This document shows, in pieces, positions 10,446 through 61,217 of a stretch of DNA of 64,000 bases (the stretch's first letter is position 1; each line of letters opens with the position of its first letter). Under the pieces are notes generated by a model that worked only from the letters and a program-made list of their open reading frames with translations, did no database searches and had not been told where the DNA came from. This DNA comes from Malania oleifera (lineage: Eukaryota; Streptophyta; Magnoliopsida; Santalales; Ximeniaceae), in the NCBI RefSeq assembly GCF_029873635.1, contig NC_080423.1, positions 108,113,988 to 108,177,987 of the forward strand. Direction: 5' to 3'. The position numbers were made by a program, and so were the translations under genes.

Positions 10446-10462
10446 AACCACTATAAAACTGT

Positions 10463-10939
10463 TGTGACATGAAACGCGCGGTGTAATGCAGCAATCACGA
10501 TGAATAATATAAAAACACACACAGATCTATTATGAAAGCAATAAAAGACACAGAAGAATTTAATGTGATTCGATAGAATGTCTACGTTCACGGGAGCAAG
10601 CGGCGGCTGAAATTCACTATCATAAAAAATAGGGTTACATCATTGTAGTTATGCTAACCCTAAACATACAGGGGATTAGAAAATTCCCCAAATACCCATG
10701 TATCAATCCGCGGAGGATTTGCCCCCACATTGCCAAACTATTGATCTTCCCAGTTTAAATTTCAAAAACAACGCCAAACAAAACCATCGACGGTTTTCTT
10801 CCTAATTTGCTTTTGGAAGAAACCGTCAATGTACCTAGTAAAACTGTCGACAGTTTTTCCTCATACCAGCTTCCTTGTTTTCATTAGCCTGCTTTTTCTG
10901 TACATGTGTTCCACTCAATATGAGCCACATACTTCAACA
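10463..10939 (-). repeat. 3' LTR of the copia element
   Basis: On the minus strand it starts TGTTGAAGTATG, directly after the purine-rich tract AAGGTGGAGAT, and ends in TGTCACA. Length is about 477 bp. It contains three related palindromic motifs around TCGAC (near 10787-10855), for example ACTGTCGACAGT. Confidence 0.65.
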
Positions 10940-19073: not shown

Positions 19074-22000
19074 TTAATCACAAGAACAACAAGACTTAAG
19101 TCCCACTAGGTGGGGATCGTGGGTTGACTACATGAATCCTTTTCCACCAATTTACTCGATTGAGAGTATTTTCCTCCACTAGATTAAGAGCTATTAAATC
19201 CTTCATCATTATCTCATTCCACGTTATTAAAAACAATACTCTTCTTCACATGTGTTTTGGTAGGCCTATGTTTCAAATGCCCAAACCATTTAAGCCGCCC
19301 CTCCTTTATCTTGTCTTTGACTGGTGCTATGCCTATATTATTGCGTATGTGCTCATTCCTTAGTTTATCTTTTAATGTTATACCACTCATCTACCTTAAC
19401 ATTCATTTCTTGGTAACTTTTACTTTTTGTACATGTTGTATCTTAGTTGCTGACCATTTTGAACCATAAAGCGTAGCCAGCCTTATAGTTGTCTTATAGA
19501 ACTTTCCTTCCAATTGTAAGGGTATTCTACAATGACAAAACTTACTTGATGCACTCCTCCATTTTACTCGACTTGCTTTAATTCGATGTATTACATACTT
19601 TTCAATTTCCCCTTCTACTTGCGTAATAGATCCAAGATATCAAAATCTACCAGTGCTATTAATTTCTTGATTATCAAGTTTAATCTTCTTTCTATTACTC
19701 CTTACGTTATAGAAATTACATTCTACTTATCCCAAAATTTTTAGACTTTAAAGTGGTTCTCTAAAATTCTAACTTAGGTTCATACTTTCATCGACCAAGA
19801 CAATATCATCTATAAACAACATACACCAAGGGATCTCATTTTGGATATTCCTAGTGAGTTCATCAATCACTAAAGTGAAAAGTTAAGGACTCAAAATAGA
19901 ACCTTGATGTACACCTATTGTGATAGGAAAATCTCTAGATTCCCTCCTACAGTCCTAACACTAGTTACTATTCTATCATACATATCCTTAATGACTTCAA
20001 CATATCTACTGCATACCCCTCTCTTTTCTAAGTCCCACCAAAGAACTTCCTTAGGTAGTCAATCATATGCTTTCTTTAGGTCAATAAAAACCAATGCAAG
20101 TCCCTTTTCTTTTCCCTAAACTTTTCCATTAATCTTCTTAAAAGATAAATAGCTTTTGTTGTTGATCTCCTTGGCATAAAATCAAATTGATTCTCTGAAA
20201 TAATAATTTTTACTCTTATTTTTTGTTCAATTACCTTTTCCCATAGTTTCATCGTATGACTCATAATTCTAATTTTGTGATAGTTATTACAATTTTTATA
20301 TTGCCTTTGTCTTTGCATTAAGGTATTAACATGCTTTTGCTCTACTCCTCTAGCATTTTCTTAGGTTTTATAATAATGTTGAATAGATTAGTCAACCAAA
20401 TACTTCCTTTATCCCATAAACATTTCCAAACTTCAATTGGTATGTTATCTAGTCCTATAGATTTCTAACTTTTTTTTTTTTTTTTAAAGTCATCTTAACT
20501 TCAAGGACTTTAATTTTGTGAATAAATCTCCTATTTTTAGTCTTCTCCGTATTTGTCAGTTCCAAGTTCAATCTTTCATTTTTGTTTTCTTATAAAAGTA
20601 TCTTTGCCACCTCTCTTTTATGTTTTCTTCTCTAGTTAAGGCAATTATCATTCTCATGCTTTATACATCTTACATTACTTAAATCATTGCATTTTTTTCT
20701 TTAGCTCTAGTAAATTTAGAAATTTCTCTTTCTCCTTCTTTTTTATCTAGTCTAGTATATAAAGTATCATAGCTCTATGTTTAGCTTCACTAATAGTCTT
20801 TTTTGCATTTTTTCTTGCCTCTTTATACTTTCCAAGGTTTTCCATATTTTTTATAACTTTGCCATATTTTATACCAATTTCTTTTTGTCTAAAGACTTTT
20901 TGGACTTTTTGATCCCACCACCAACTTTCTTTACTACCTGGGATCTTCCTTTGGACTCACCTAAAATCTCTTTTGCTATCTTTATGATAGAGTTAGCTAT
21001 CTTATTCCAAACAATATTTGCATCTACCTTACCCCTTACTGTCCAATCACATTTTTGATAATTTTATTTTTGAATTTTACTATATTTTCTTCCTTCAAGC
21101 TCCACCACTTAGTCCTCTTGTGTTGATTATGTTACTTTTTTCTTCCATTTTTTTAGTACGTATATTTAATACCAGATGCTCCTCAAGTCGGCTTAGCAGA
21201 AAATCTTAAGAGACAATTTTGGGAAGATATGGATAGATACAAGGCATACCAGGAACTGAGAAAATATTTATAGGAGGAGATTTGAATGGATATTTTGGAA
21301 GAGATAATAAAAATTTTGAGAGGATACATAGAGGATATGGATATGGAGACAAAAATGAGTCTAGGGAGATGATCTTAGATTTCGCTATGTCTTATGATTT
21401 TAGTATAATGAATACTTGCTTTAAGAAGAGAGAAGAACACTTAATAACCTTTAAAAGTGGACAAAGTAGAAGTCAAATAGATTTTTTTTTAGCTAGGAGA
21501 GTAGATCGTTTATCATGCAATGATTGTAAAGTTATTCGAGGTGAAAGCCTAACCACACAACATAGAGTCTTAGTGTTAGATATATGTATTAAAAAATGGA
21601 AGAAAAATGATAAAATAAACTAGTGTAAGAGAACTAGATGGTGGAACCTAAAAGGAGAAAATATAATAAAATTTAAAGATAAAATGATCAAAGATGGGGA
21701 TTGCACTATAGAGGATGGGATAGATACAAATACTCTTTGGAATAGTTTAGCTAGCTCTATTAAAAAGATAGCAAAAGAGATTTTAGGTGAATCAAGGAGG
21801 GAGATTCTTGAATAGCAAAGAGAGTTGGTGGTGGGATAAAGATGTACAAAAAATCATGAAGACAAAAAGAATTTGGTATAAAACGTGACAAAAATGTAGA
21901 AACAGAGATAACTTTGAAAGATATAAGGAGGCAAGAAAAGATGCAAAAAAGGCTGTTAGTGAAGCTAAATATAGATCATTTAATAGTTTGTATGATAGAT

Positions 22001-25000
22001 TAGGTACAAAAGAAGGGGAAAGAGATATATTTAAACTTGCTAAAGCTAGAGAAAGGAAGAGTAAGGACTTAGAAAATGTAAAATATATAAAAAATGAAGA
22101 TGATATTGTCTTGGTTAAGGACGAAGTCATTAAAGAAAGATGGGGAAGTTACTTTAGTAAGTTGTTTAATGAAAACCATAGAAGACTAAACTTAGAATTG
22201 TCAAATGAGGAAAAGATTAAAAATATGAGATTTATTCGCAAAATTAGAGTTAACGAAGTTAAGTTTGCACTAAAAAAGATGAAAAATGGGAAAACTGTGG
22301 GACCAGATAACATCCCAATTGAAGTTTGGAAGGTGATAACGGAATTATATGGTTAACTAATTTATTTAATACAATTTTAAAAACTAAGAAAATGCCAGAT
22401 GAATGGAGGAAAAATACTTTAATACCTATATACAAAAATAAAGGAGATATTCAAAATTGTAATAACTATTGTGAAATTAAACTTATGAGTCATACGATGA
22501 AACTATGGGAAAGGGTAGTTGAACAAAAATTAAGGTTAGAAACGAAGGTCTCAGAAAATCAATTTGGTTTTATGCTTAGGAGATCTACCACATAAGCTAT
22601 TTATCTTTTAAGAAGATTAATGGAAAAGTTTAGGGAAAAGAAGAGGGACTTGCATATGATATTTATTGATCTTGAGAAAGCATATGATAGGATACCTAGG
22701 GAATTTCTATGGTGGGTTTTTGAAAAAAATGGTGTATGTAGTAGGTATACCTATGTCATTAAGGATATGTACGATGGAGTAATGACTAGTGTAAGGACTA
22801 TATATGGAGAAACTAGAGAATTTCCAATCACCATAGGTGTATATCAAGGATCTGCTTTGACTCCTTATCTTTTTGCTTTAGTGATGGACCAATTGACTAA
22901 GAGTATTCAAAAGGAGGTTCCATGGTGTATGTTGTTTGCAGATGATATTGTATTAATTGACGAAATTAGGGACGGAGTAGAGGCTGAGTTAGAATTATGG
23001 AGAGAAACTTTGGAATCTAGAGGTTTTAGGATAAGTAGAAATAAGACAGAATATATGAAATGTAATTTAGTAATGATAGGAAGAATATTGGAGACAAAGT
23101 TAAACTTGATGATGAATAAATAAATAACACTTGTAGATTTCGATACCTTGGATCTATTGTGCAAGCTGAAGGAGAAATTGAAGATGATGTAATGCATAGA
23201 GTTAAAGCAGGTTGGGTAAAATGGAGAAACGCTTCAAGTGTGCTCTGTGATCGTAGGATACCCTTAAAATTGAAAGTGAAGTTTTATAGGACAACTATAA
23301 GATCAGCTATGCTATGTGGATCGGAATGTTGGGCGACGAAGAAACATAATATCCAAAAAGTAAAAGTCGCCGATGTGAGAATGCTTAGATGGATGAGTGA
23401 TATAATATTGAAAGATAAATTAAGAAATGAACATATTTGTAGTAAGTTAGGTGTAACTCCTATAGAAGATAAGATAAGGGAAGGACGACTCAGATGGTAT
23501 GGACACTTGCAACGTAGGCCACATAGTGCACCTATGAGGAAGAGTGACTTAGTTACTGTGAGGGGCAGTAGAAGGGGTAGGGGTAGACTTAAAAATAACT
23601 TGGGAAGAGGTAGTGAGTAAGGATTTAATATCCTTAAATCTATCAAAAGAAATGGTCCATGATCGCATAAATTGGCGAAAAAAGATTCATATAGCCGACC
23701 CCACCTATTGGGACTAAGGCTTGGTTTTTTTGTTGTTGTTGTTTTTGTTGTATATCTAATACCAGAAATCTATATTGTGTAGCCAAACTTTCATATGAGA
23801 TAACTTTACAATCCTTACAAGATAGACGATCTCCCTTCCTAGTTAAGAAGAAATCTATTTGGCTTTTATTTTGCTCACTCTTGAAAGTTATTAAGTGTTC
23901 TTCTCTTTTTATAAAACAAGTATTCAATATAACCAAAGTGTAAGACATGGCAAAATCTAAAATTGTATCATCGGTCTCATTTTTATCTCCATATCCATAA
24001 CCTCCAAGTTTCCTCACATAACCTATATTAACCTTTTCAATGTGTCCATTCAAATCAACTCCTATGAATGTCTTTTCAAACACTGGCATCTCTTGTAAAA
24101 TACTATTCATATCTTCCCAATTGTCTTTTAAAATTTTCTGCAAAGCCTATTTGGGGAGCATGCACACTAATAACATTTAACTATCTCTAGGCCTAAAGCT
24201 ATCCTTATTTTAATTCTCCTATTCCCTATTTTTTTAACATCTACTACATTATCTTTTAGGTCTTTGTCTACAATAATTTCCACCCTGTTTTTATGTCTCT
24301 TTTCCAGTGTACCAAAGTTTAAATCCAGATTTTTTCCAATTTTTATAGCCTTGTCTCTTACCATATTGAAGGCAAATTACGTTAACTTTCCTTCTAGGCA
24401 TTGTTTCCATTATTTCCATGCTTTTGCTTGTAAGTGTCCCTATATCCCAAGTTGCTAATCTAATTTTAGTTTCTTGTGCTAACTTCTTAGCCCTCTCCCT
24501 TCTACACTGACTAGGTCTGTTCTCTTGACTTGAGTGGATTTGGTAAGAATTTATGATATAAGGATATGACAAATTTTATGCTGGTTGTCAACTACCTAAC
24601 GCAACCCTGCTCCTTTTTTGTGCTTGGGATCAACTGTGTGTACAAAGATAATCTGTGTCGCACAGGTAAAGTGTAAGTTCTTTTTTTTTTATTTTTATTT
24701 TTAGATGCAAAAACTTATTTTACATAGACAATAAAGGAAAAACTAAAGTGCTTATCATGCTAGTGCTTTTTGGGAATTTTTCTAGCAATTGCAGGTGAAA
24801 TCTTTTGTCACATTTCAAAAGTGGTGTTGAATGTGCTGGCATAGCTATGACATTGAAACCATGAATAAGGGAAAACATATATTCTATGAGTAAAGTCTCA
24901 TTTTATATATTCAGAAAATTAATTACTACCAGTTCAACAATGCTTATTTGATTGCTGATTTTTTTTTCCCCAAAAGAAGGGCAGATTTTTGTTTATGCTG

Positions 25001-46851: not shown

Positions 46852-47033
46852 TGTTGGAAGTGGTGTCATCCCAAGAGGGGGTGAATTGGGTTTTAAAATT
46901 TTTTGGGTAATTTAAATATTTGTCGATTCACCACAATTCATATTTCATTCGATATTGAAAGCGTGTACGTAAAAAGATTAAGCTATCAGTGCAGACATAC
47001 ACGTATGCATCATATTCTCATTTAAATTAAATG

Positions 47034-48942
47034 TGTAACGACTTGCTATACTTTATAAATATTTTAAAATTTTTCAATAATAAATACCATGAAATTCCAT
47101 ATCTCTAATACCTTCTAATATATAAATATATTTAACTACCAACCTATGCAGCAGGATGTTGTATCCATATAACCATAAACACATATATACACAATACCAG
47201 AGTACTAAGATGTTCCCAAAATATGCATATATAACTATTCCTCAGAAAGAAACCCTCATCTGTGCCAGAGTTATACAAAATTAATTTCCCAAAAATACAA
47301 ATTAATCTCCCAAAAATACTCACTCTATTGATGGGGCAGCACTGAAGCCCCTCTACCTGCGAGCTTGATCTGCTCGCCTACTTGAATCACCTGAAAAATA
47401 TTAAAGTAATGAGATGAGCCAACACTCAGTAAGACGAAATATGTTATTGCTAGTATGTGGCAAATGGTTATAATACTATGAAAGTCTGATTCTATATAAT
47501 CATATATAACTGAATCTGTAAATATGGTACAAATAATATAAAATACCACATTGTTCACATTGCTTAACATAACTGTCTTTATAAGTTTTCTATTTAAAAT
47601 ACTTCTAATATACATAAGTATATCTTTTGTTTCTATAAACTGTATATACATATAAATACTGAAAAACTTCCCTATGAATAACTGTATGTCATGATTTAAC
47701 CCCTCATGATAGGGTTGTGCGGCCCGTAGGCAGGATCTATCACTGGCTGGCCTACCAGGATAAACCACTATACTCCGTCAGTTAGATCGGCCCTCCTCAA
47801 CCCATATCTGATGGGGAGCCTGTCCACAACATAAGCACGATCGACTTATCTACCACATATTATCTGAATAGGTGGTTGCACTCTATACTGTATATAGTTA
47901 CGGTACCGTGCTCTATAAACTGTATCTGTAATGGTCCATCAGGGTCTGATACTATATATTACGTTTCTATATACAACTATCTGTTTCACCATGATTCTGT
48001 AATAATTGTATTAACCATGACGCTGTAATAAATTGTATCTATATTAACTGTGTTTCTGAAATTAACTGTAAATTTGTATGTCATGGTACTGTAAAACTAA
48101 AAATCAAGGTATTCTGAAAAATATTGTAAAACATGTTCCTTGTCTGTATATTCTGTAAAACACAATCTTGAAAATACTGTAAAACATATTTCTGTACTGT
48201 ATCCATATTCTCATGCCACATAGTAATTAAAACATCTTAAACATAATTGATAATTGTATAAAATTCCTGCTGTGAATAATAATCTGGTAAAAATACATAT
48301 TTTATACTGAAAATCTTACTAGAAGTGCCTAGCATAGCATATTTCCCTTACCTATTTCCTGCTAGAACCCCTACTGTGGCGAGTCTTACACCCGCAGGGT
48401 TCTCCACTCAACACCCTGAAAACCATAAATCCCATAACAAAATAGTTTTATTTCCTTGCGTACTACATTTCCTACAACTGCTGAAAAGCCAAACTTTGAC
48501 AAAAAGACCTTACCCTAAATCTGGGATGAAATTCAACTTCGCCCCACCGACAATCGGCTCTGACAGACCCTAGGAGCGTCGTGGTGGCCTCTAATAATTG
48601 ATCCAGCGGTCGACGGGGCCGGAATAGAGGAGAGAGAAGGGAGAGACCGTAGAGAAAAGAGAGAGAGAGTTTCTGTGAACTTTCCTGCGTAAAAACTAAG
48701 TTTAGCCCTATTTATATTATGGGATTTGTCAACAAGTCACGTCATCTCATCGATGAGGCTAAGAAGTAATTCGTCAATGAACTCTCCCCTTCATCGATGA
48801 AATTCAGAATCGCCCAAAACATCCTCTTGGTATCTTCTTGTCGACGAAACATGTCCTCGTTGACGAGACCCTCTTGTACCCTCGTCGACGAATCCTCTGT
48901 GTTCATCGACGAGGCCATGAGAAAATTTCTTGGGTTATTACA
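47034..48942 (-). repeat. 3' LTR of the gypsy fragment
   Basis: About 1.9 kb, starting TGTAATAACCC on the minus strand and ending CGTTACA. U3 holds about eight TCGTCGACGA-type palindromes (48728-48915). The TATA box is CATAATATAAATAGG (48708-48722 region). A CT-rich run follows it on the minus strand. Confidence 0.8.
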
Positions 48943-50205
48943 TTCTCCCTTCCTTATAAAATTTCGTTCTCGAAATTTACTATTCATATAACTCATCATC
49001 CTTTAAAGGCAAAATGATCTACTTATTTTATTACTTGCCCTCATTTATGGCGGAGGAATATTGTGGTTACATGGGTAGTTCTGGGAGATTACAACTCTAA
49101 AAGAAAATTCCCCCAAAATCAAAATACTACATATCCTATATACTACATTACAATTCCATTGTGCTAAACAAAATAAAATTACCATTACCTTAATTATACA
49201 TCACTGCTGTATTCACTAAACAAGTGGGGATATTTTCGTCTGATCTCATCTTCAAGCTCCCAAGAAGCTTATCGCGTGATTCTTCCACAGAACTTTTACT
49301 AGTGGTATCTTTTTACTGTGCAATTCCTATTCTTTTCTGTCTAGGATTTGTACTAGAGCTTCCTCATATGCTAGATCACCACTGAGTTCCAATTCTGCAT
49401 AACTAATGATATGAGAAGGATCTGTGATGTATTTTCTTAATATAGAAACATGAAACACGTCGTGAATCTTGAATAAAGATGGTGGTAAAGCTAGCCGATA
49501 AGCCACTGACCCAATTCTCTCGAGTATCTCAAATGGGCCAATGAACCTAGGGCTTAACTTACACTTCTTCCCAAACCTCATGATCCCCTTCAATGGTGCT
49601 ATTTTCAGAAATACATGATCACCCACTTCAAATTCTAGTTCTCGGTGGAGAGTATCCACGTAACTTTTCTGTTGACTTTATGCTGCACTGATTCTATTTC
49701 GAATGAGTCGAACTTTATCATATGCCTACTGTACTTTTTCTGGCCCCAAAACTCGCCTCTCACCCAGCTCACTCCAATATAAAAGGGAACGACACCTCCT
49801 ACCATAGAGTGCTTTATAAGGAGTCATGCCAATGCTAGCCTGGTAGCTTTTGTTGTAGGCAAATTCCACCAATGACATATACTGAGTCCAACTACCCCCA
49901 AAATCCAATACACACGCTCGTAACATATCCTTAAGTACCCGAATCGTTCTCTCTGTCTGACCATCCGTATGAGGATGGAAAGCGGTGTTGAATGCTAGCT
50001 GAGTCCTCAATGCCTCCTGCAAACTTCTCCAAAATCGCGATGTAAAATGTGGATCACGGTCCGAGACTATAGATACCGGCACTCCATGGGGTCGAACAAT
50101 CTCCTATATGTAAATCTTTGCTAACCTGTTCATAGGGTAGCTAATTCTGATGGGCAGAAAATGAGCTGTCTTTGTCATCCTATTAACAATCACCCAAATG
50201 ACATT
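47034..50205 (-). mobile_element. Ty3/gypsy (Tekay/Del-like chromovirus) fragment
   Basis: Minus-strand integrase remnants (50205-49726, with [28 protein letters not shown] and [13 protein letters not shown]) are followed by the C-terminal integrase region (49659-49327, with FEVGDHVFLKIAP and KLSPRFIGPFEI). A purine tract GGAAGGGAGAA and the 3' LTR at 48942-47034 come next. These sequences match the Tekay/Del type as I know it. No gag, RT or second LTR is present. It is a broken fossil that inserted into an older LTR. Confidence 0.85.
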
Positions 50206-51596
50206 TTGAAATTAATCAAAGTTCCTAATCAAAGCAAATGAAGGGGTATTTATAGTTTTTCAGGAAATTATGACCGTTGGGGACATATTGGGGATTTTAA
50301 AAAAGTTTAATTAAGTTTAATAAAAATTAACCCCTATTTAACCTCGGTAAAAATTGGTCAGCCAGAGAGGTTCGGTCAACCAAGGCAAATTTCAACTACA
50401 AGTTTGGTTGGTCGTCTTAGTGCGGTTATGAACCCTTCGTGGGTTTGGTCGACCAACGCAAAGTTTGGTCGGCTACTCATCTAGGTTTGGTTGACCAAGA
50501 CTAATTTGAACTACAAGGTTTGGTCAACCAATTAGTTGGGGTGTCAGACACTTTATGGTTCGGTCGACCTAGGACGATGCGTTCAAAATAGAATGGTCGA
50601 CGGAGAGAAGTCAACATGACTGGTTCGGTCGATCGAGGCATTTATACTGCCAAGGGTTCGGTCGACCGAGACCACTAAATTTGTGCTTTTAAGTCCTGTT
50701 TTCGTCTCTATGCTTTAACAACCCTATGTGATCAAGCATATGTCTTTTAAGCTTAAGGGTATTGGTCCTTATGGTCATATTATGGTCTACGGCCTATTTG
50801 GTTGACTGAGCTAATTAATACTGGAAGGGTTCAGTCGACCGGACTTATAAATTAAGCCTAAAAATCTAACATCGATCGACTTCTTTGTAAGCCCTAAATT
50901 GACCCTAAAGTTAACATATTAAAACCTTTGTAAAATTTTATCTTTTTATGAAAAAGTTTTGTATGAAGTGTAGGTGCCCTATGGTCAGTCCACGGTCATT
51001 TGAGCATTCAATCCATATTATGCAGATCCATGCATTATTATAGACCAAAGATAAAAAACTAAATGCAAATACATATGAATTTAGATGTCTTTTTCTTTTC
51101 TTTCTCTTCAAATCTTCATGGAATATGCTAGGATGATGTGAGCTTTACATCCTTTTTGACTTCCATTTTCAGTCTCCTTATGTGTGTGTTGAATTGTAAA
51201 CTTGTTCACATGCTAAGTACACATTTGTCAGTATCAAAACAGGGATCAGACTCAAAAAGCTAACACAAACATAACCTAAGGGATGGAAGATGGGGTTCTA
51301 GTTGCCCTCCCCACCATATTCACTTCTTCCACTTCCGTTTTTCAAGAGGAGGGTTCCTAGTTTGTTTATTGTTAATAGAATCATGCTATCTGTCACATAG
51401 AACGTGGCGAGAAGGTAGGGATGACGCCCTATCTGCTCGCCACATCAACCTATAACCATCAAAAACCTGTGACAAGTAGGATCTTTCATTATTATTTTTG
51501 TTACAATAATACTAGTATCTAAAATTGAGATGATATATTCATTTTTTTTTCTGTCTTTTAACAAATCAAACTTGTTCCTATATCCTTCTACAATCA

Positions 51597-52880: not shown

Positions 52881-53437
52881 AAGTTTATCAAAAAGACACA
52901 AAACTCGCCTGAAAAGATTTTTTTTTTTTATAAAATACGAAAAAAAAAAAAAAAAGGTTTGATTCTATTTGAGCACTTAAGGGAAAGTCTACAAAATTTT
53001 TAAAATCTTAGAAGATGTCAATGTCTTTTTTACGAATCTCAAGGAAGGTAGTATCTTTTGCCATTATGGATATGTATCTTTATTTTTTAGGGTAAAAAAC
53101 ACTAACCTCTCGTGATGTTTAGCAAAAAGACATAAATCTCTTTTGAAGTTTAAAAAATCTAATTGATTTCTTTAAATTTCAAAAATGTCATAAATTTTTC
53201 CTAAAGTTTGTTAAAAGGACACAAATCTCCTTTTATAAAAAAAGGATTGTGTCTTTTTTGATAAACCTCAAAAGAGTTTCTTGAATTTTTTGAAATCTCA
53301 GGAGAAGTCAATCTTTTTGTTAAACCTTAGGCAAGGTTCCCAAAATTCTTGAAATATCAGGGAAAATCCCTGAAATTTTTGAAACCTTTAAAGGAGGTTA
53401 GTTTCTTTTGTTAAATTCTTTTGCCATTATGAATAAG
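52881..53437. repeat. Degenerate repeat with AAACCTCA-type units
   Basis: Several imperfect units of roughly 50-60 bp carry phrases such as TTGAAATCTCAGG, TTGTTAAACCT and TCTTTTGCCATTATG. The phrase TTGCCATTATG occurs at 53061 and 53421, the second time just before the solo LTR. The repeat resumes after the LTR at 55975. Confidence 0.5.
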
Positions 53438-55974
53438 TGTTGACTTGATTGGTCACACCCAGTTTTGATTATGACAAATACTCTTGGTACTAATGGTTGT
53501 ACTGAGAATTGTATGCAGGTTCACCTTGTGCGCGCTTCAGGACTAAAAGACTTATTATGATGGCGTGCGGTGTTCGTGCCGATGAATGAAGAACCTTGTG
53601 CTGCATTTATATTTATTTTTCAGTTTCTTCATTCTGAGATGTAATTTTATTATGGACTGTGCACTCATATGGCTTGTAATAATTTGCATCATGCATGATA
53701 GGTAGGTATGCTCAAATTGACCTTAGATTGACCATAGGACCTCCAAATAACATGAAAAACCTTTTTCATAAAATGCCTAACTTATACAAAGGTTTTTAAA
53801 TGGTTTTGAAGTTAAAAGAAGGCAAAAACTAAAATTTTCAAAGGGGTCGGTCAACCGGCCATTCGACCAAACCGTTAGAAATGAGAAATTTTCTCACTCA
53901 ATTGGATCTCATATCAAACCATGTTCAACATGAAAATTGTGGTATTTTACCATAGCTTGGGTTTGATACCAAGAACATCCAAATTGGAGTTGCACAGAAA
54001 AAGTTATGGTCAAAACACTGAAATGTGTTCGTAAGAGAAAAACTCCCTTCATGTTTCTTCCATCTCATTGATGGACATTTTTCTCAATCTAAAAGTCATT
54101 ATCCTAAAATGTGTTCAACATAAAAGTTGTGGTATTTTATCTTACCTTTCTATTGGTATCAAGAACATCCAATTTGGAGTTGTATAGGAAAAGTTATGGC
54201 CAAAACACTAAACACTGTCTGTGCAGAAAATTAGACGCCGGTCGACCGAGCCCTTACAGTTCATTTGTCCCCGGTCGACCGAACCACGTGGGAGTCAACT
54301 TTTTGACCTCCCGGTCGACCGAGCCTTCACTACGGTCGACCGAAACTCGCTGATTTGAGCCCCGGTCGACCGAGCCTTCACCACGGTCGACCGAAACCCC
54401 CCTGGTCGACCGAAACTTGTAGTTCAAAAATCCCTGGTCGACCGAAACCCTCCAGAGTCAACAGTTGACCATTCGGTCGACCGAGAGCTTTTGTAATACA
54501 ACTACCTGGTCGACCGAAGGGTCCTCGGGTGAATTTTCAGCGGTCTGGTCGACCGAACCAGGTAGTTCAAAATGCCCTAGTCGACCGAAACTCGGAAAAT
54601 TGGCAAATCGCCCTCTCCGGTCGACCGAGCCTTTCAGTTCAAAAGTCCCCTGGTCGACCGAGCCAATTGAGTCCTGGTCGACCGAAACATTTTTGGTCGA
54701 CCGGACCTCTCGGGTTGCCCTGATTTTTTACCGCACTTAATATTTTTTAAACAGGGTTAATTATTTTAAAATGATTTAAAACTTTCCTAGTAATGCCCAA
54801 TAGGTCGCCAACGGTCAAAAATAACTCCTTGCCTATATATACCCATTCATTTATCATTATTAGCAAGGATTAACAAACTTGATTAGGGCAAAACTCTCTC
54901 AACTCTTAAAACCCTATATTAGCCAAAAACTTCTTGCAAACACTCACATACTCTTCAATCTTTATTTCTCTAAGCATTGTGAGTATTTCTATAAGGCTGT
55001 TGTGCGTAATCTTTCTAGCTAATACTCTCTTTTGGTATAAAGGTTGATTGATTTTATTTGAGAGTATAGCCTAAAGTTCTTCCACGGATTTCATTTGATA
55101 AATCTTGTGTGGGAAGACTTTGAGGGTTGTGGTTCTTGCATTGTTGTTGCAAGATACCTAAACCTAGATTTTGTGTGCAAAATCCTTTTGTGAAAAGCTA
55201 ATCTTTCAAACAACTCCATTGTTCTTTAGAAATTGAAATATCATATTGAGTTTGTTTGATCTATCTTGCTTAGCATATTTGAAACCCTAATATGATTTTG
55301 TGATATTCGAATATTGAGTTTCAAATCTTGCTTAGATACACACTCTAGATCTTGATTGATTATCATACTTGATTGAGTGTTTAGCACACATTAGAGCACT
55401 GAGCATATCCACATATCATTCGTGCTTGCTTTATTGATTGAGCTGTATTGGTGCACACATCTGCTTTTCTAGAAGCATATTTCCGTGTACAAATTTTATA
55501 CACTTTGGTTGTATTTCCAGGCACGGGCCTGAAGAGGGAGACTAGCCCTGGAATAGTCCCGGATTGGCTTAGACCCGGTTAGGAAAGCTAGGTGCGTCGT
55601 CCTGTTAAGGCGTGTAGGTTGAGGTCAGCCCCGCTAATTGACCTGGTTAAGGTTGAGGTCAGCCCTGTGTTAATTTGACCTGGTTGTAAACGGTGCCGCT
55701 CCACCCTTAAGTGAGCTGTTAGTGGAATCCTCTTACTTGCGAGCTAGAGGCGGGGACGTAGGCACAGTTGGCCGAACCCCGATAACATATCGTGCGTGTT
55801 CTTTACATTTCCGCAATTTACTTACTGCACGTGTATGTTATATTGTAAATGATTAGATTTACATTTGCATAGACAGACCCTAGGTTAAGTAATACTGCTT
55901 ATCTGGTTTAACCTAGGTGATAATTTTTAAATACCCAATTCACCCCCCCTTTTGGGATTGCACCAAAGCTAACA
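53438..55974 (+). mobile_element. Solo LTR carrying a GGTCGACC palindrome array
   Basis: 2537 bp, starting TGTTGACTTG and ending AAGCTAACA, with a perfect 5-bp duplication ATAAG on both sides (53433-53437 and 55975-55979). A TATA box, CTATATATACCC (about 54833-54844), sets plus orientation. U3 contains the GTCGAC array at 54236-54708. The end (CAATTCACCCCCC, TTTTGGGATTGC) is of a kind common in large plant LTR elements. There is no internal region, so it arose by LTR-LTR recombination. Confidence 0.85.
54236..54708. repeat. Array of about 16 GGTCGACC palindromes in LTR U3
   Basis: Sixteen units of the type CCGGTCGACCGA or CTGGTCGACCGA lie about 20-40 bp apart and end about 125 bp before the TATA box. 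Nearly all keep the palindromic core GGTCGACC. Spacers such as GCCTTCAC and TAGTTCAAAA are partly shared, so the array grew by unit duplication. Confidence 0.9.
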
Positions 55975-55979
55975 ATAAG

Positions 55980-56814
55980 TATCTTTATTTTTAAAAGTAA
56001 ATTTTTATACAACCAACATTCTTCAAATAAATAAATTTCTATACTATATAAATATATAGTAAAATCCAACGTCTCTTAAATTTTTTGAATATGACACTTC
56101 ACAACTTAAGTTTTAAAAATAACTAAAATATTTTCTAAGGTTTAGTCTAATTGACAAAATGAACCTTCTGTTAGTCAATCATTTAGTATATGTGAAAATA
56201 TATAAATTTTATCCATAATTAAATGATTTTAAAATGGTATCAATTTAATAAATTAAATTGAGAAATTTGGTCAGTATAATGCATTGAAAATCTAATTGGT
56301 TCTTGAATTGAAAGGTCTAACTGATTCAATTACTTTGGATTAAACAATTAACATCAACACAACACAAAAAATTTTATTATTGAATGAAAGAGTAAAATTA
56401 TCATTTTATTAAGGACAGTAAAATTATCATTATATTAGAGATAAAATTTATTTTTTACTAGAATTAGGTTGAATGGCATTCAATTAATAAAATGTTCATT
56501 TTGTAAATAAAATTAAACCTTATGAGATTTCTAGGTAGCCTTGAAATGGGAGCGAGTATCATATTCAAAAAAATTAAGGGCTATTATTGGATTTTACCAG
56601 AATAGTGTAAATTATTTTATTAATAAAGTTATTCTAAGATTAAATACTAAAAAGTAATTTAACCAAAGGCAGATGAAATTATATTTAAAATGTCAAAAAG
56701 TTAATGATTAAAATTAAAGAAAATTTTTTATTTGGTTATAAAATAAAATAAGCTAACATAATACTTACATATCGATCTATATATATAATTTTTGCTTAGT
56801 TAAAGAAAATAATT
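55980..56814. other. Intergenic, AT-rich, no gene seen
   Basis: It continues the degenerate repeat interrupted by the solo LTR, then AT-rich DNA without recognisable coding. Confidence 0.5.
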
Positions 56815-57080
56815 GTATGCTTTAAGCCCATTTCAAACTTGAAAAAAATGTAAAAAATAAATAAAAAAGAAACAAATTATTTTTAAATTTTAATTATCAA
56901 GAAAAAAATGAAAGAATTAAAACATATAAAAATTTAATTCCACAAGTTAGTAATATTTAACTTTTTAAAATCTAGATTAAATTAATTTTCTTTATAATAT
57001 TTGATATAAAGAAAAATATAATAATTATTTTTCTTTTTCAAAAAAATTATTAATTAAATGAAACTAAATTTCATATTGAA
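56815..57080. repeat. MITE-like unit, family A, diverged
   Basis: It starts GCCCATTTCAAACTTG and has TTAATTATCAAGAAAAAAAT-like and AATATTTGATATAAAGAAAA landmarks in family order. Confidence 0.45.
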
Positions 57081-57599
57081 ATATTGAAATGTGGGAAAAA
57101 ATGACAATAAAAATTATGCTAATTGGGAGATTTGTACCTTATTCAAAGCTAATTTTCTATTTTTGGCAATATCTATTTCCTAAAAAGGAATAATTGACCA
57201 CATATTTTTGTTGTTAAAAGGAAATAAATATTATTAAAGTATTTAAAAAAAACAATCATATTACAATCAATTTAGTTTTGACCTTATTCTTCACCATGTA
57301 CTAAATTGTCTTCCTCCTTAAAAATATTGACTTTACCCCTAATGATGTAGTCATTTATTTTGCCAAAAAATAAAAATAATAACCAAAATTAGGCATGTGG
57401 ATTCAAATGGATTAACACAACAAAACACATGAAAATTATAATGTGAAAAAAGGAAGAAGAAGAAAAGAAGGATGTCAGGGTAATGCATCAATATAGGTAA
57501 GGCAATAGTGCAATTGATTTTCTTACTAAAGAAAGAGAAATGAGAAACAATGTAATTTATGAAGAACAACACCTTCTACCACGTTATCTGAAAGGTATT

Positions 57600-57855
57600 C
57601 TTCAGATGGATAGGTGAGGTATCGTTTCCGTTTGTCATTAGTTCACCTCTAGAGTTTTGTTTGGTGCATTTTGTTTTGAGTTTGGTTGTGTTTATGTTTT
57701 TTATCTTCTTTGTTAATTATGTTTTAGTTTTTTTATCCTAGTTTGATTGGTTACTGGTGTTGTTTTATCTTGTAACCATGGTATTCCTCTGCCAAAAGTA
57801 AGAGTATATTAATAAATAAATGGAGGTGCCACCTTCTTTTAGCAAAAAAAAAAGA
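57600..57855 (+). mobile_element. L1-type LINE 3' end, first of two
   Basis: The 3' UTR has AACCATGGTATTCCTCTGCC and GGAGGTGCCACCTTC, then a poly-A tail at about 57846-57855. It matches the second 3' end at 58370-58466. 5'-truncated. Confidence 0.65.
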
Positions 57856-57889
57856 AGAAGAAGAAAAGAAAACTCCTCAAGCTTCGGCA

Positions 57890-58466
57890 AGGACAACGTT
57901 TATTGTTAGGTAAGAGCTAGTCTGAACTTAGGAAGTATTTGGTTTGGAACTTATGGGAATTGTGAAAAGAACTTGTGTTAGCATTGAGAGACATATATTA
58001 CAAAGTGGAACATGTTTATAGGGAAGAGAATCAAAGTGCGGATTTCTTTGCCAAGTAGGGTGAATCTGGTATATCTCGATCATATAGTTGTCAGGATGAG
58101 CTTCCAACAAGTCAGGGAAATGATTCAATTGGATTTGTTGAGATTTCCTTCCTCACACTCGTGATGCTTTGTGCTGGCGTTTTGTGAAAGTTGGAGTCGT
58201 TGGTTTATTCCTCGAGATCTTCCAGAGTTTTGTTTGTTTTTAACTTATAGTTGTTTAGTTCTTTTTTTTGTTTGGTTGTTGGTCACTGGTTTTTTGGTTT
58301 TGAATAAGTTGGTTAAGTCAGTTTTAGATTTTTAGAGTTTGATTTTATTTTCTTCAAGTCTCAAGGTTGAAACCACGGTATTTCTCCGCCATAAGTGAGG
58401 AATTTTCTAATAAAGATAGGAGATGCCACCCTCTTTCTTTCTTTTTTCAAAAAAAAAAAAAAAAAA
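57890..58466 (+). mobile_element. L1-type LINE 3' end with RNase H remnant
   Basis: It encodes part of the RNase H tail, VYREENQSADFFAK, near 58013-58055, interrupted by a stop. A 3' UTR follows with AACCACGGTATTTCTCCGCC and GGAGATGCCACC, and a poly-A tail at about 58448-58466. Same family as the copy just upstream. Confidence 0.7.
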
Positions 58467-58758
58467 CCATTCTGAACCTCGTACTTGTTTTAAAATAGAA
58501 AAAAAAAAAACCCCCTTAGAATTGTTTGCTAACATAGGTATGGGCAATGCTTCTTGTTGATTTGGAGTTTGAATCTCATATTTACTTGAAAAAGGTAAAA
58601 TTTAGAGAACGTCCTCCCTTCTTGCGAATTTGCTGAGCCAAAAAAAAACCCAAACAACATTAGTTGAGAAATTTTTTTTTTTTAAAAAAAAAACTGTGCT
58701 AGTTGTCTCATTGGCAAAGACATTAATAATGTTTGTTGGTGTTTAAGAGTTCAATTAT

Positions 58759-60583
58759 TGTAACGCCCTGACCCTTAATACGGCCCCAGAGTGCTACTAT
58801 ACATACATATCCTGTACAGGTCCTGATAACATACATAACTACCCGCAGTAAACATGGATATATGGGTATTTCATAATGATTCGTACTCACTATATTGAGA
58901 AAAACATAAACATTCATATGAATTTTAATAGACATACCGGAGTATCTAAATGTTCATTACATATATTCAACCGTACTTAAAAACATAAACTGTATTACAT
59001 TCCCAAAAACAACCAGGCTAACAACCCACTATTCATATAGAAACTTACGCTAACTAACAGGACCCTATGCTCCACAGCCTCATTAGAAGACTAGGACCGA
59101 TTTCCTGTAACTCCTGAAAACAAGGTTGTAAGATTGGGGTAAGACACTTCTTAGTAAGGACGAAGATATTACATCAGTGTGGGACTATACAGTTATATTC
59201 TTGTTTGAAAATAGTTACATATATTGCACATTCTCAATACTATAATATATATAAATTCCTAATAATGTATAAACCAACATCATTACAAGTGAGAGTACTC
59301 GAGGTTAGGGCAGGGTACAGGCCCATACACTGTACAATCCCTCTGCCCGGTACTCAAACCTGTGACTCTGCCCAGTAAAGCTTTTAAATCATGCATATGC
59401 ATATTTAGAACACCGTCCAGCTCGAAACTATCATAACTATGCCAGTAACTGCCCGTGGCAAGGGTTGTGCGATAAGAAAACACTGATCGAGCCCTGTACG
59501 TGCATGCATCGTTAGACATCATAACATACTGCAGTCGAACTTGGCCATCACCACCCTGATCCCTTTTAAGCAGTGGCCCTTCTTACCAAGCTTACTACTA
59601 GGTACCCACACTGAACAATAACTACGTGTGGTTGCACTGTACCTCTGTTTTGGCAACGGTACCGAGCCTACATGATATAAGCTTTTTAAGGCTTCATGTG
59701 CTATTGAAACAAGCTGCGGTCCCAATATCATATATAAAATTTACATTAAAACGTAATAACCTGTGCAATTCCAATATTTTCACAATCTCATTCATGCATA
59801 CTTTCATTCATACTGTGGTAAAAATCGGCTCGTAACCTCTCGGTTTTACCCTTTTCTCATACTTGGCACGGTAGCTAACCGGCACATGTTTCCTGAAATT
59901 TCTAATAATCACTTGGAACCTTAGTCCCCATAGTTCATACACATGTATCTCAAATCAGTATAAATTAAATTCTTATCATGCGTCACACTTATTCAGGTAA
60001 AAATATACTATAAACAGTAATCAGTTCAAAATATCCTTTAAATGGAAAACATGGGTTCAAGCATCTCCTATTAGTAGTTTTAATGCAATTTAAGTAATTT
60101 TAAAGAAATTTGGAGATCGTCTGTCAAAAACCCCACTTTTTCCAAAACCATAAAACTATCGATCTGGCATATCTACCCGATGGAATTTCGCAAATAAGCA
60201 GTCATATTTTTCATATAAACATAAGCTACATATCTAGTAGTTTCATTTTCTGAAAATACTTATGTAAACAAATCCCCTTACTTTTATCTCGAAACTAAGA
60301 CACGAGCTTATTGATCCAAAATTACGACATGAACTCCTCAAAACCTTAAAACCGAAGAACAATACTTCAATATTATTCAATCTACTACAGATCTACCAAA
60401 ACGAAAATGAATTCAGATCATTACCTCGATTTTAGGGAAAAACTCGAAAATTTTTAAAATGATGATTTGATCTGCTATAACTGAAGAGATTCTCCTCCTG
60501 ATCCACACAGGAACCTCTGATCGTCGAAGCGAACGACAAACGGCAAAGAATAGTAGAGAGAGAGAGAGAGGGCTCGCTGGTTC

Positions 60584-60633
<50 letters not shown>

Positions 60634-60914
60634 GGGTTTTCTTAACCCTTGAGCAACCAAAAATGATATTTATAGAACCTTTGACCGAGTCAAATTCGTC
60701 GACGAAACGGCGCCTTCGTTGACAAACTAGCCAGGCTGTTCATGGACGAAACTCTACCCTCGTCGACGAACCCCATCCGGATATTTTCTTTGGTTCACTC
60801 GGTATCTCTTTGTCGACGACACTCTGAATTTCGGCGACGAAGAGCTGAAGGGATTTTGTCGACGAACATACTGTCTTCGTCGACGAATCTTATTTATGGG
60901 TTCGGGTCTCTTCA
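58759..60914 (-). mobile_element. Solo LTR, gypsy (Tekay-like), with GTCGAC array
   Basis: 2156 bp, TG at 58759 and CA at 60914, with a perfect 5-bp duplication ATTAT (58754-58758 and 60915-60919). On the minus strand it runs from TGAAGAGACCC to GGGCGTTACA. U3 has about eight TCGTCGACGA-type palindromes (60697-60890) and a TATA box TCTATAAATATC (about 60667-60680). A long CT run (plus strand AG, 60552-60630) follows the TATA box. The layout matches the LTR at 47034-48942. Confidence 0.85.
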
Positions 60915-61217
60915 ATTATCCTTTTACTTAATTTACCTAGAAAAAGATAAAAACTAAGAGAATGTTTGTTTTTATCTAAGTGTTCAATTAATCTTATGTC
61001 TATTTACCATTAAATATATGAAAACTAACAGAATGTTCTTCCATCATGTGAATTCATCGGGTATAAAAAAACATAGACAACATTAGTAAAAAAAAAGAGC
61101 CAAAAAGTAAAAACCTGCGAAAGTTGTCCCATTGGTAAAGGCATGAATAATGTTTGTTGTTGTCTAAGAGTTCAATTAATCATGTATCTAAAAAAAAAAA
61201 AGAAAAAAGAAAAAGAA

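Follow-up and report, generated by a model that had tools for sequence, protein, structure and literature searches.

Arrays of GTCGAC-centred palindromes upstream of the TATA box, putative clusters of protein-binding sites in long terminal repeats of Malania oleifera

We analyzed a 64,000-nucleotide stretch of the Malania oleifera genome (contig NC_080423.1, positions 108113988-108177987 of a genome totalling 1.494 Gb in 510 contigs; hereafter the window) and found that five retrotransposon long terminal repeats (LTRs), designated A, A2, B, B1 and C, carry clusters of palindromes centred on GTCGAC in their unique 3' (U3) regions. Sequence comparison assigns these LTRs to three lineages, namely Sirevirus-like copia (A and A2), gypsy-like (B and B1) and classic copia (C), and each lineage has its own arms around the core (CGGTCGACCG in A, TTCGTCGACGAA in B and AACCGTCGACGGTT in C), as a sequence-only reading of the window had noted in describing differing flanks. 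We lean, by a small margin over an even chance, towards regarding the arrays as homotypic clusters of putative dyad protein-binding sites that serve the LTR promoter as its upstream activating region.

GTCGAC arrays in the window and in genomic copies

GTCGAC occurred 30 times in the window against 2.60 expected (standard deviation 1.58), a count reached by none of 100 shuffles, and its observed/expected ratio (12.7x) was the highest among the 64 six-base palindromes, followed by that of GCGCGC (4 sites, 10.5x). All 30 sites fell within the five LTRs, whose features are as follows.

53438..55974, + strand: solo LTR A, Sirevirus-like copia, with target-site duplication ATAAG at 53433-53437 and 55975-55979
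54236..54706, + strand: U3 array of A, 16 GGTCGACC(GA) units
54834..54841, + strand: TATA box of A (TATATATA), about 130 bp past the last unit
46852..51265, - strand: LTR A2, a relative of A, split by a gypsy-like 3' LTR and a pol fragment
50375..50876, - strand: decayed GGTCGACC array of A2
47034..48942, - strand: LTR B1, a gypsy-like 3' LTR
48740..48915, - strand: decayed YTCGTCGACGAR array in the U3 of B1, directly upstream of the TATA box
about 48710-48716, - strand: TATA box of B1
49330..50103, - strand: pol fragment adjoining B1, comprising an integrase-like piece (by eye) and an SH3_Tf2-1 domain
58759..60914, - strand: solo LTR B, with target-site duplication ATTAT at 58754-58758 and 60915-60919
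60693..60890, - strand: U3 array of B, about eight TTCGTCGACGAA-like units
60667..60674, - strand: TATA box of B (TATAAATA)
10460..10939, - strand: LTR C, a classic Ty1/copia 3' LTR, its far end (about 10460) placed by eye
10783..10856, - strand: three AACCGTCGACGGTT-type sites in the U3 of C, one of them an exact GTCGAC

The approximately 16 units read earlier in A correspond to 16 exact GTCGAC sites at 54241-54701 (15 within GGTCGACC and one within AGTCGACC), and the roughly 12 decayed units of A2 fit the count over the first 1010 bp of that LTR, which gave 5 exact sites (0.08 expected) and 16 at up to one mismatch (2.4 expected). About eight units had been proposed for each gypsy LTR. This number held for B, with 5 exact sites (0.3 expected) and 8 sites at up to one mismatch upstream of the TATA box (3.4 expected), although the shuffle maximum was also 8 and the one-mismatch count is not decisive for this single LTR. 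It did not hold as it stood for B1, where the part ahead of the TATA box holds 2 exact sites (0.1 expected) and 5 one-mismatch sites (1.8 expected, with up to 6 in shuffles), so that eight units require further mismatches; one exact site follows the TATA box of B1. In C, the count gave one exact site and two with one mismatch (expected 0.02 and 0.6), the three related motifs were recovered by eye, and no TATA match was found in the window copy of this LTR. The enrichment in B, B1 and C became firm only once genomic copies were added.

The position of the sites was compared in those genomic LTRs that have a TATA match, comprising 18 of 19 family A copies (locus L014 left out), 16 of 19 B copies and 17 of 19 C copies, the downstream part of the LTR being incomplete in the fetched loci of family A. 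Exact GTCGAC sites numbered 239 in 24,980 bp upstream of the TATA box and 0 in 16,373 bp downstream in A, 33 in 4,306 bp and 0 in 30,826 bp in B, and 12 in 4,848 bp and 0 in 2,881 bp in C (binomial P = 8e-53, 8e-31 and 0.005, respectively, with copies treated as independent; the P values overstate independence because the copies are related). A and B thus show a strong contrast between the two sides of the TATA box and C a modest one, and the earlier claim of a common core placed upstream of the TATA box was upheld. One-mismatch sites followed the same direction in B (22.06 per kb upstream vs 0.88 downstream), and in 17 relatives of B1, 5-10 one-mismatch units precede the TATA box and 0-3 follow it in stretches of about 400 bp. 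An array upstream of a TATA box was likewise seen in the window copies of A, A2, B and B1, and by eye in two flanking elements, at loci L022 and L026.

Among the palindromes in the U3 of the genomic copies, GTCGAC showed the largest excess in A (256 vs 4.4 expected), B (45 vs 2.3) and B1 (37 vs 2.7), and the third largest in C (13 vs 0.7), behind ACATGT (16 vs 1.7) and AAATTT (21 vs 8.7). It also led in A2 and in the elements at L014, L022 and L026, all four of which were chosen because they hold clusters. Loci L001-L004 were left out after an initial count, and L007, the second LTR of the element at L006, was left out of the U3-excess and decay tests.

We further examined 131,627 bp of DNA flanking 57 loci, with relatives of A, B and C masked; these loci were chosen as relatives of the three families and are not a random sample. 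The flanks held 33 GTCGAC sites against 6.4 expected (5.1x), the top ratio of the 64 palindromes. Fifteen of the 33 sit in three more arrays identified by eye, one Sirevirus-like (L014) and two B-like (L022 and L026), the latter two being of the TTCGTCGACGAA type and upstream of a TATA box. The other 18 include some single A- or C-like sites and three sites of another type at L037 (3731-3806), whose arms differ again (TTAGTCGACTAA and AATCGTCGACGATT among them). Confinement of the excess to the studied families is therefore not established, as a mild excess remains outside the known arrays.

Conservation of the word and its putative role

Units and spacers were compared in A and B (20 LTRs each) and in B1 (17 LTRs). 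When units of A were picked at up to one mismatch to GGTCGACC, agreement within the unit was 0.90-1.00, while nearly all spacer columns showed 0.2-0.48; when units were picked on the six core letters, core columns showed 0.64-1.00 and most spacer columns 0.17-0.46. Conservation extended to the immediate flanks. On the left of the core, A retained G (0.86), B retained T (0.92) and C (0.77), and B1 retained T (0.97) and C (0.77); on the right, the retained letters were C (0.87), G (0.86) and A (0.80) in A, G (0.80), A (0.95) and A (0.88) in B, and G (0.81) and A (0.97) in B1. Since the units are alike and the spacers are at chance identity, the word itself has been kept in these families, and a simple tandem repeat is ruled out for A, B and B1. 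The units of A are spaced at 32, 39, 33, 39, 32, 40 bp and so on, and their number varies from 12 to 17 across 20 LTRs, which indicates that the array grew by duplication and that its spacers have since drifted to chance.

The CpG-rich core was then considered in terms of its decay, counted against majority sequences, so that subfamily differences are included (L057 and L060 were also left out here). CpG transitions in the motif compared with other CpGs were slightly fewer in A (39/1008 vs 89/1517, P = 0.026) and similar in B (97/546 vs 317/1680, P = 0.61) and C (15/72 vs 113/568, P = 0.88). Outside the motif, CpGs changed faster than other C/G positions (odds ratios 2.5 in A and 2.1 in B), so a CpG-rich word would be expected to disappear first if no selection acted in the transposing lineages. 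At the A/T positions of the A motif, 0 of 578 cells had changed, compared with 287 of 23,810 outside. Protection of motif CpGs after insertion was not seen in B or C, with a weak difference in A, and special targeting of these CpGs by silencing was not seen in the motif versus other-CpG comparison for any of the three families. Once inserted, motif CpGs appear to decay much like others, as expected of methylated DNA, which suggests that the word is kept by selection in transposing lineages and not by local protection.

Maintenance of the word between freely varying spacers points to a DNA-binding protein. The units would be occupied by such proteins of the host, probably as dimers; the dyad clusters ahead of the TATA box would feed the core promoter, in the manner of a multi-site activating region; and copies that lost units would have left fewer descendants. 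The architecture of B/B1 and C is as in A, with only about three units in C.

Several observations weigh against this binding-site proposal. The confinement of exact sites to U3, seen in the genomic copies of A, B and C, was weak for C, in which one-mismatch density was 7.84 per kb upstream vs 5.21 downstream, no clear U3 difference; moreover, 10 of 20 C copies lack an exact GTCGAC. With about three units, too few to compare, C also stands outside the unit-versus-spacer comparison. Picking units by core similarity inflates core identity by construction. The dyad of A is extended by GA on one side only and always in the same orientation, a feature not accounted for by a purely symmetric dimer site. 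Some sites of B have the arms but not the GTCGAC centre (of 20 copies, 5 contain an exact TCGTCGCCGAA and 9 an exact TTCGTCCACGAA), and what is essential may therefore lie outside the centre. Finally, the arrays fold better than shuffled sequences, which makes an RNA role a real rival, as folding could be the selected property.

Lineages of the elements and comparison with known arrays

With the motifs masked, A and A2 matched at 75% over 125 bp (E = 3e-13), and B and B1 had 53 bp in common at the TATA box (E = 9e-5). Between lineages, the best match joined the 3' end of A2 and B1 (E = 0.05 over 18 bp), followed by A2 vs B (E = 0.087, 29 bp), A vs B1 (E = 0.21) and B vs C (E = 0.63), and no match at E <= 1 was obtained for A vs B, A vs C or B1 vs C. 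Such short and weak matches point to three lineages. The families had been taken as unrelated, which stands for the three lineages and not for five independent LTRs; conversely, a single family with an ancestral array, named beforehand as what would overturn the idea, is true within A/A2 and within B/B1 and was rejected on the LTR comparisons across A, B and C.

The gypsy-like assignment of B1 draws on the adjoining SH3_Tf2-1 domain (Pfam, E = 3.9e-28); the 125-aa piece next to this domain gave no match in Pfam and is integrase-like by eye only. The solo LTR B is tied to B1 through the 53 bp that they have in common. For C, the interior of a relative (L083) contained RVT_2 (E = 1.3e-27), Pol_BBD and gag_pre-integrs, and this copia pol together with the short LTR (about 480 bp) indicates a classic Ty1/copia element.

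The A-type array is, judged by its sequence, already known from Sireviruses. Bousios et al. (2010, BMC Genomics 11:89, PMC2829016) describe palindromic repeated motifs that precede the TATA box in Sirevirus LTRs, and CGGTCGACCG is a listed motif of a Vitis Sirevirus, with 10 copies in the 3' LTR (PMC2829016). Family A resembles these elements (PMC2829016) in the CGGTCGACCG palindrome, in the placement of its palindromic array in the upstream half of the LTR with the TATA box after it, in a poly-C signal near the LTR end (CACCCCCCC, about 25 bp from the 3' end of LTR A), in a CA/ATTGG junction followed by a tRNA-Met primer site (aaca adjoining attggtatcagagcc at the 5' junction of the relative L082), and in a repeated polypurine tract ahead of the 3' LTR (L082 ends with two AAAGGGGGAGA copies). 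It differs in the distance to the TATA box, about 130 bp after the last unit in A as against a mean of 37 bp after the CpG island in Sireviruses (PMC2829016), and in its attachment site, which is AA/TG by eye in L082, the one relative inspected, as against the AT/TG reported for 20 Sirevirus elements (PMC2829016). The 4.4-kb interior of L082 (C2:144463700-144468140) is also gag-only, holding a single gag-like open reading frame (ORF) whose Retrotran_gag_2 match (E = 0.00023) is below the gathering score, and no pol ORF of at least 100 aa was found in this one interior; L082 is perhaps a non-autonomous element. In view of the AA/TG site and of an interior that holds no such pol ORF, A is named Sirevirus-like and not a proven member. 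Maize Sireviruses offer a further comparison, since these copia LTRs likewise have palindrome arrays in their regulatory part, called small-RNA hotspots in PMC5311732, though in other species and families.

B/B1 and C are not Sirevirus-like, judged by the little coding sequence seen; their motifs lack the CGG...CCG order, and in B and B1 the array occupies part of the first 250 bp of the LTR. Cruz et al. (2014, PMC4029996) report 5' CpG islands for LTRs of Del chromoviruses in grasses, which are like B/B1 in having a CpG-rich, variable stretch at the 5' end of a gypsy LTR; for their eudicot Del group they report no CpG island, and the string 'palindrom' is absent from the accessible text of that article. 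In the open-access literature, none of the matches listed showed a palindrome array in a gypsy or a classic copia LTR, as far as their accessible text goes.

Elsewhere in the window, positions 19238-24097 hold a large inverted repeat with four arm pairs of 165-463 nt, 74-87% complementarity and a strong switch in GC skew.

Alternative explanations and a possible common host factor

The common core may be a coincidence, each lineage having its own palindrome and its own factor, with a TCGA centre arising by chance in three. This is compatible with the arrays being binding sites and competes with the idea that one factor reads them; we give it an even chance. The arms differ by lineage, some B sites keep the arms and not the centre, and the published Sirevirus signature is CGG-CCG with varying centres (PMC2829016, Table 3), all of which fit a coincidence. 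By a rough count there are 16 CG-centred six-base palindromes, so that two further chance matches would have a probability of about 1/256, a figure obtained after the fact. Against chance speaks the U3 rank of GTCGAC among the 64 palindromes (first in A, in B and in B1, but third in C), as does its top ratio in the flanks, though the latter partly reflects more A- and B-type arrays.

A serious rival, though a less likely one, is that selection favours or tolerates the arrays at the RNA level: U3 lies in the 3' part of the element RNA, where units could pair into long hairpins that would supply small-RNA silencing or act as its decoy. When folded, the window copies of the A, B and C arrays surpassed their dinucleotide shuffles (z = -7.46, -3.35 and -3.19; shuffles as good, 0/100, 0/200 and 0/200, respectively), and palindromes of maize Sirevirus LTRs have been called small-RNA mapping hotspots (PMC5311732). 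Yet any palindrome cluster folds well, so these z-scores do not separate an RNA from a DNA role; the flanks of A do not mirror each other, as unit-to-unit pairing would favour; and C has only about three units.

Far less probable is the origin of all arrays from one ancestral array, by descent or by capture through template switching. Relatedness outside the motif makes this true within A/A2 and B/B1, but only the short, weak matches noted above connect the lineages, the coding domains set the copia RVT_2 of the C relative against the SH3_Tf2-1 beside B1, and the arms differ; an ancient capture may have happened all the same, because spacers drift to chance. A neutral tandem-repeat artefact of slippage or unequal exchange, with the word unselected, is the least credible of the alternatives, since homogenization would have kept the spacers as well as the CpG-rich core, although duplication, as the repeated 32/39-40 bp pattern and the varying unit number of A show, did build and reshape the array.

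If the arrays are clusters of binding sites, one host factor might read the GTCGAC core, three lineages from two superfamilies having converged on such dyads, which we consider rather improbable. In a methylated form of this idea, GT(5mC)GAC, where 5mC is 5-methylcytosine, could offer TTGAC-like, W-box-like letters on both strands, as 5-methylcytosine carries the methyl group of thymine; the W-box link is a proposal drawn from WRKY biology. The one observation in its favour is that at least one TTGAC/GTCAA lies within 45 bp upstream of the TATA box in 19/19 B copies with a TATA match (of 20); against it, the same holds for 8/16 B1 copies, mostly through decayed units, and for 0/10 C copies. 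In family B (relatives L025-L043; window 60667-60695), an inverted TTGAC pair, TTTGACTCGGTCAAAGG...TATAAATA, is found directly upstream of the TATA box.

A second site next to the TATA box was found in family A. The sequence YCYAACGGYYA, which we take to be the consensus of the mitosis-specific activator (MSA) element, a MYB3R site of the G2/M phase, occurs in 18 of 20 family A LTRs (relatives L006-L024, L006 and L007 being one element), the exceptions being the window copy and L012, and at 23 sites in the 271,068 bp of fetched DNA. Of these 18, the 17 that have a TATA match show the site beginning 27 bp ahead of TATATATA (26 bp ahead of the preceding C), and the MSA-like site of A2 (50271-50281, minus strand) likewise starts 27 bp before the TATA box. 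By these sites, family A elements may be transcribed at G2/M. The AACGG core of MSA is documented (PMC10905365), and the one paper listed for MYB3R, MSA and retrotransposon concerns tomato fruit shape.

Overall, a feature of Sireviruses is here extended to gypsy-like and classic copia LTRs of one host, and three arm types around one core provide a test of whether unrelated retrotransposons converge on a common host switch. If the methylated form were true, an array would work best once the host has methylated it. Should one factor be found, it would offer a common handle on much of the retrotransposon transcription in a large plant genome.

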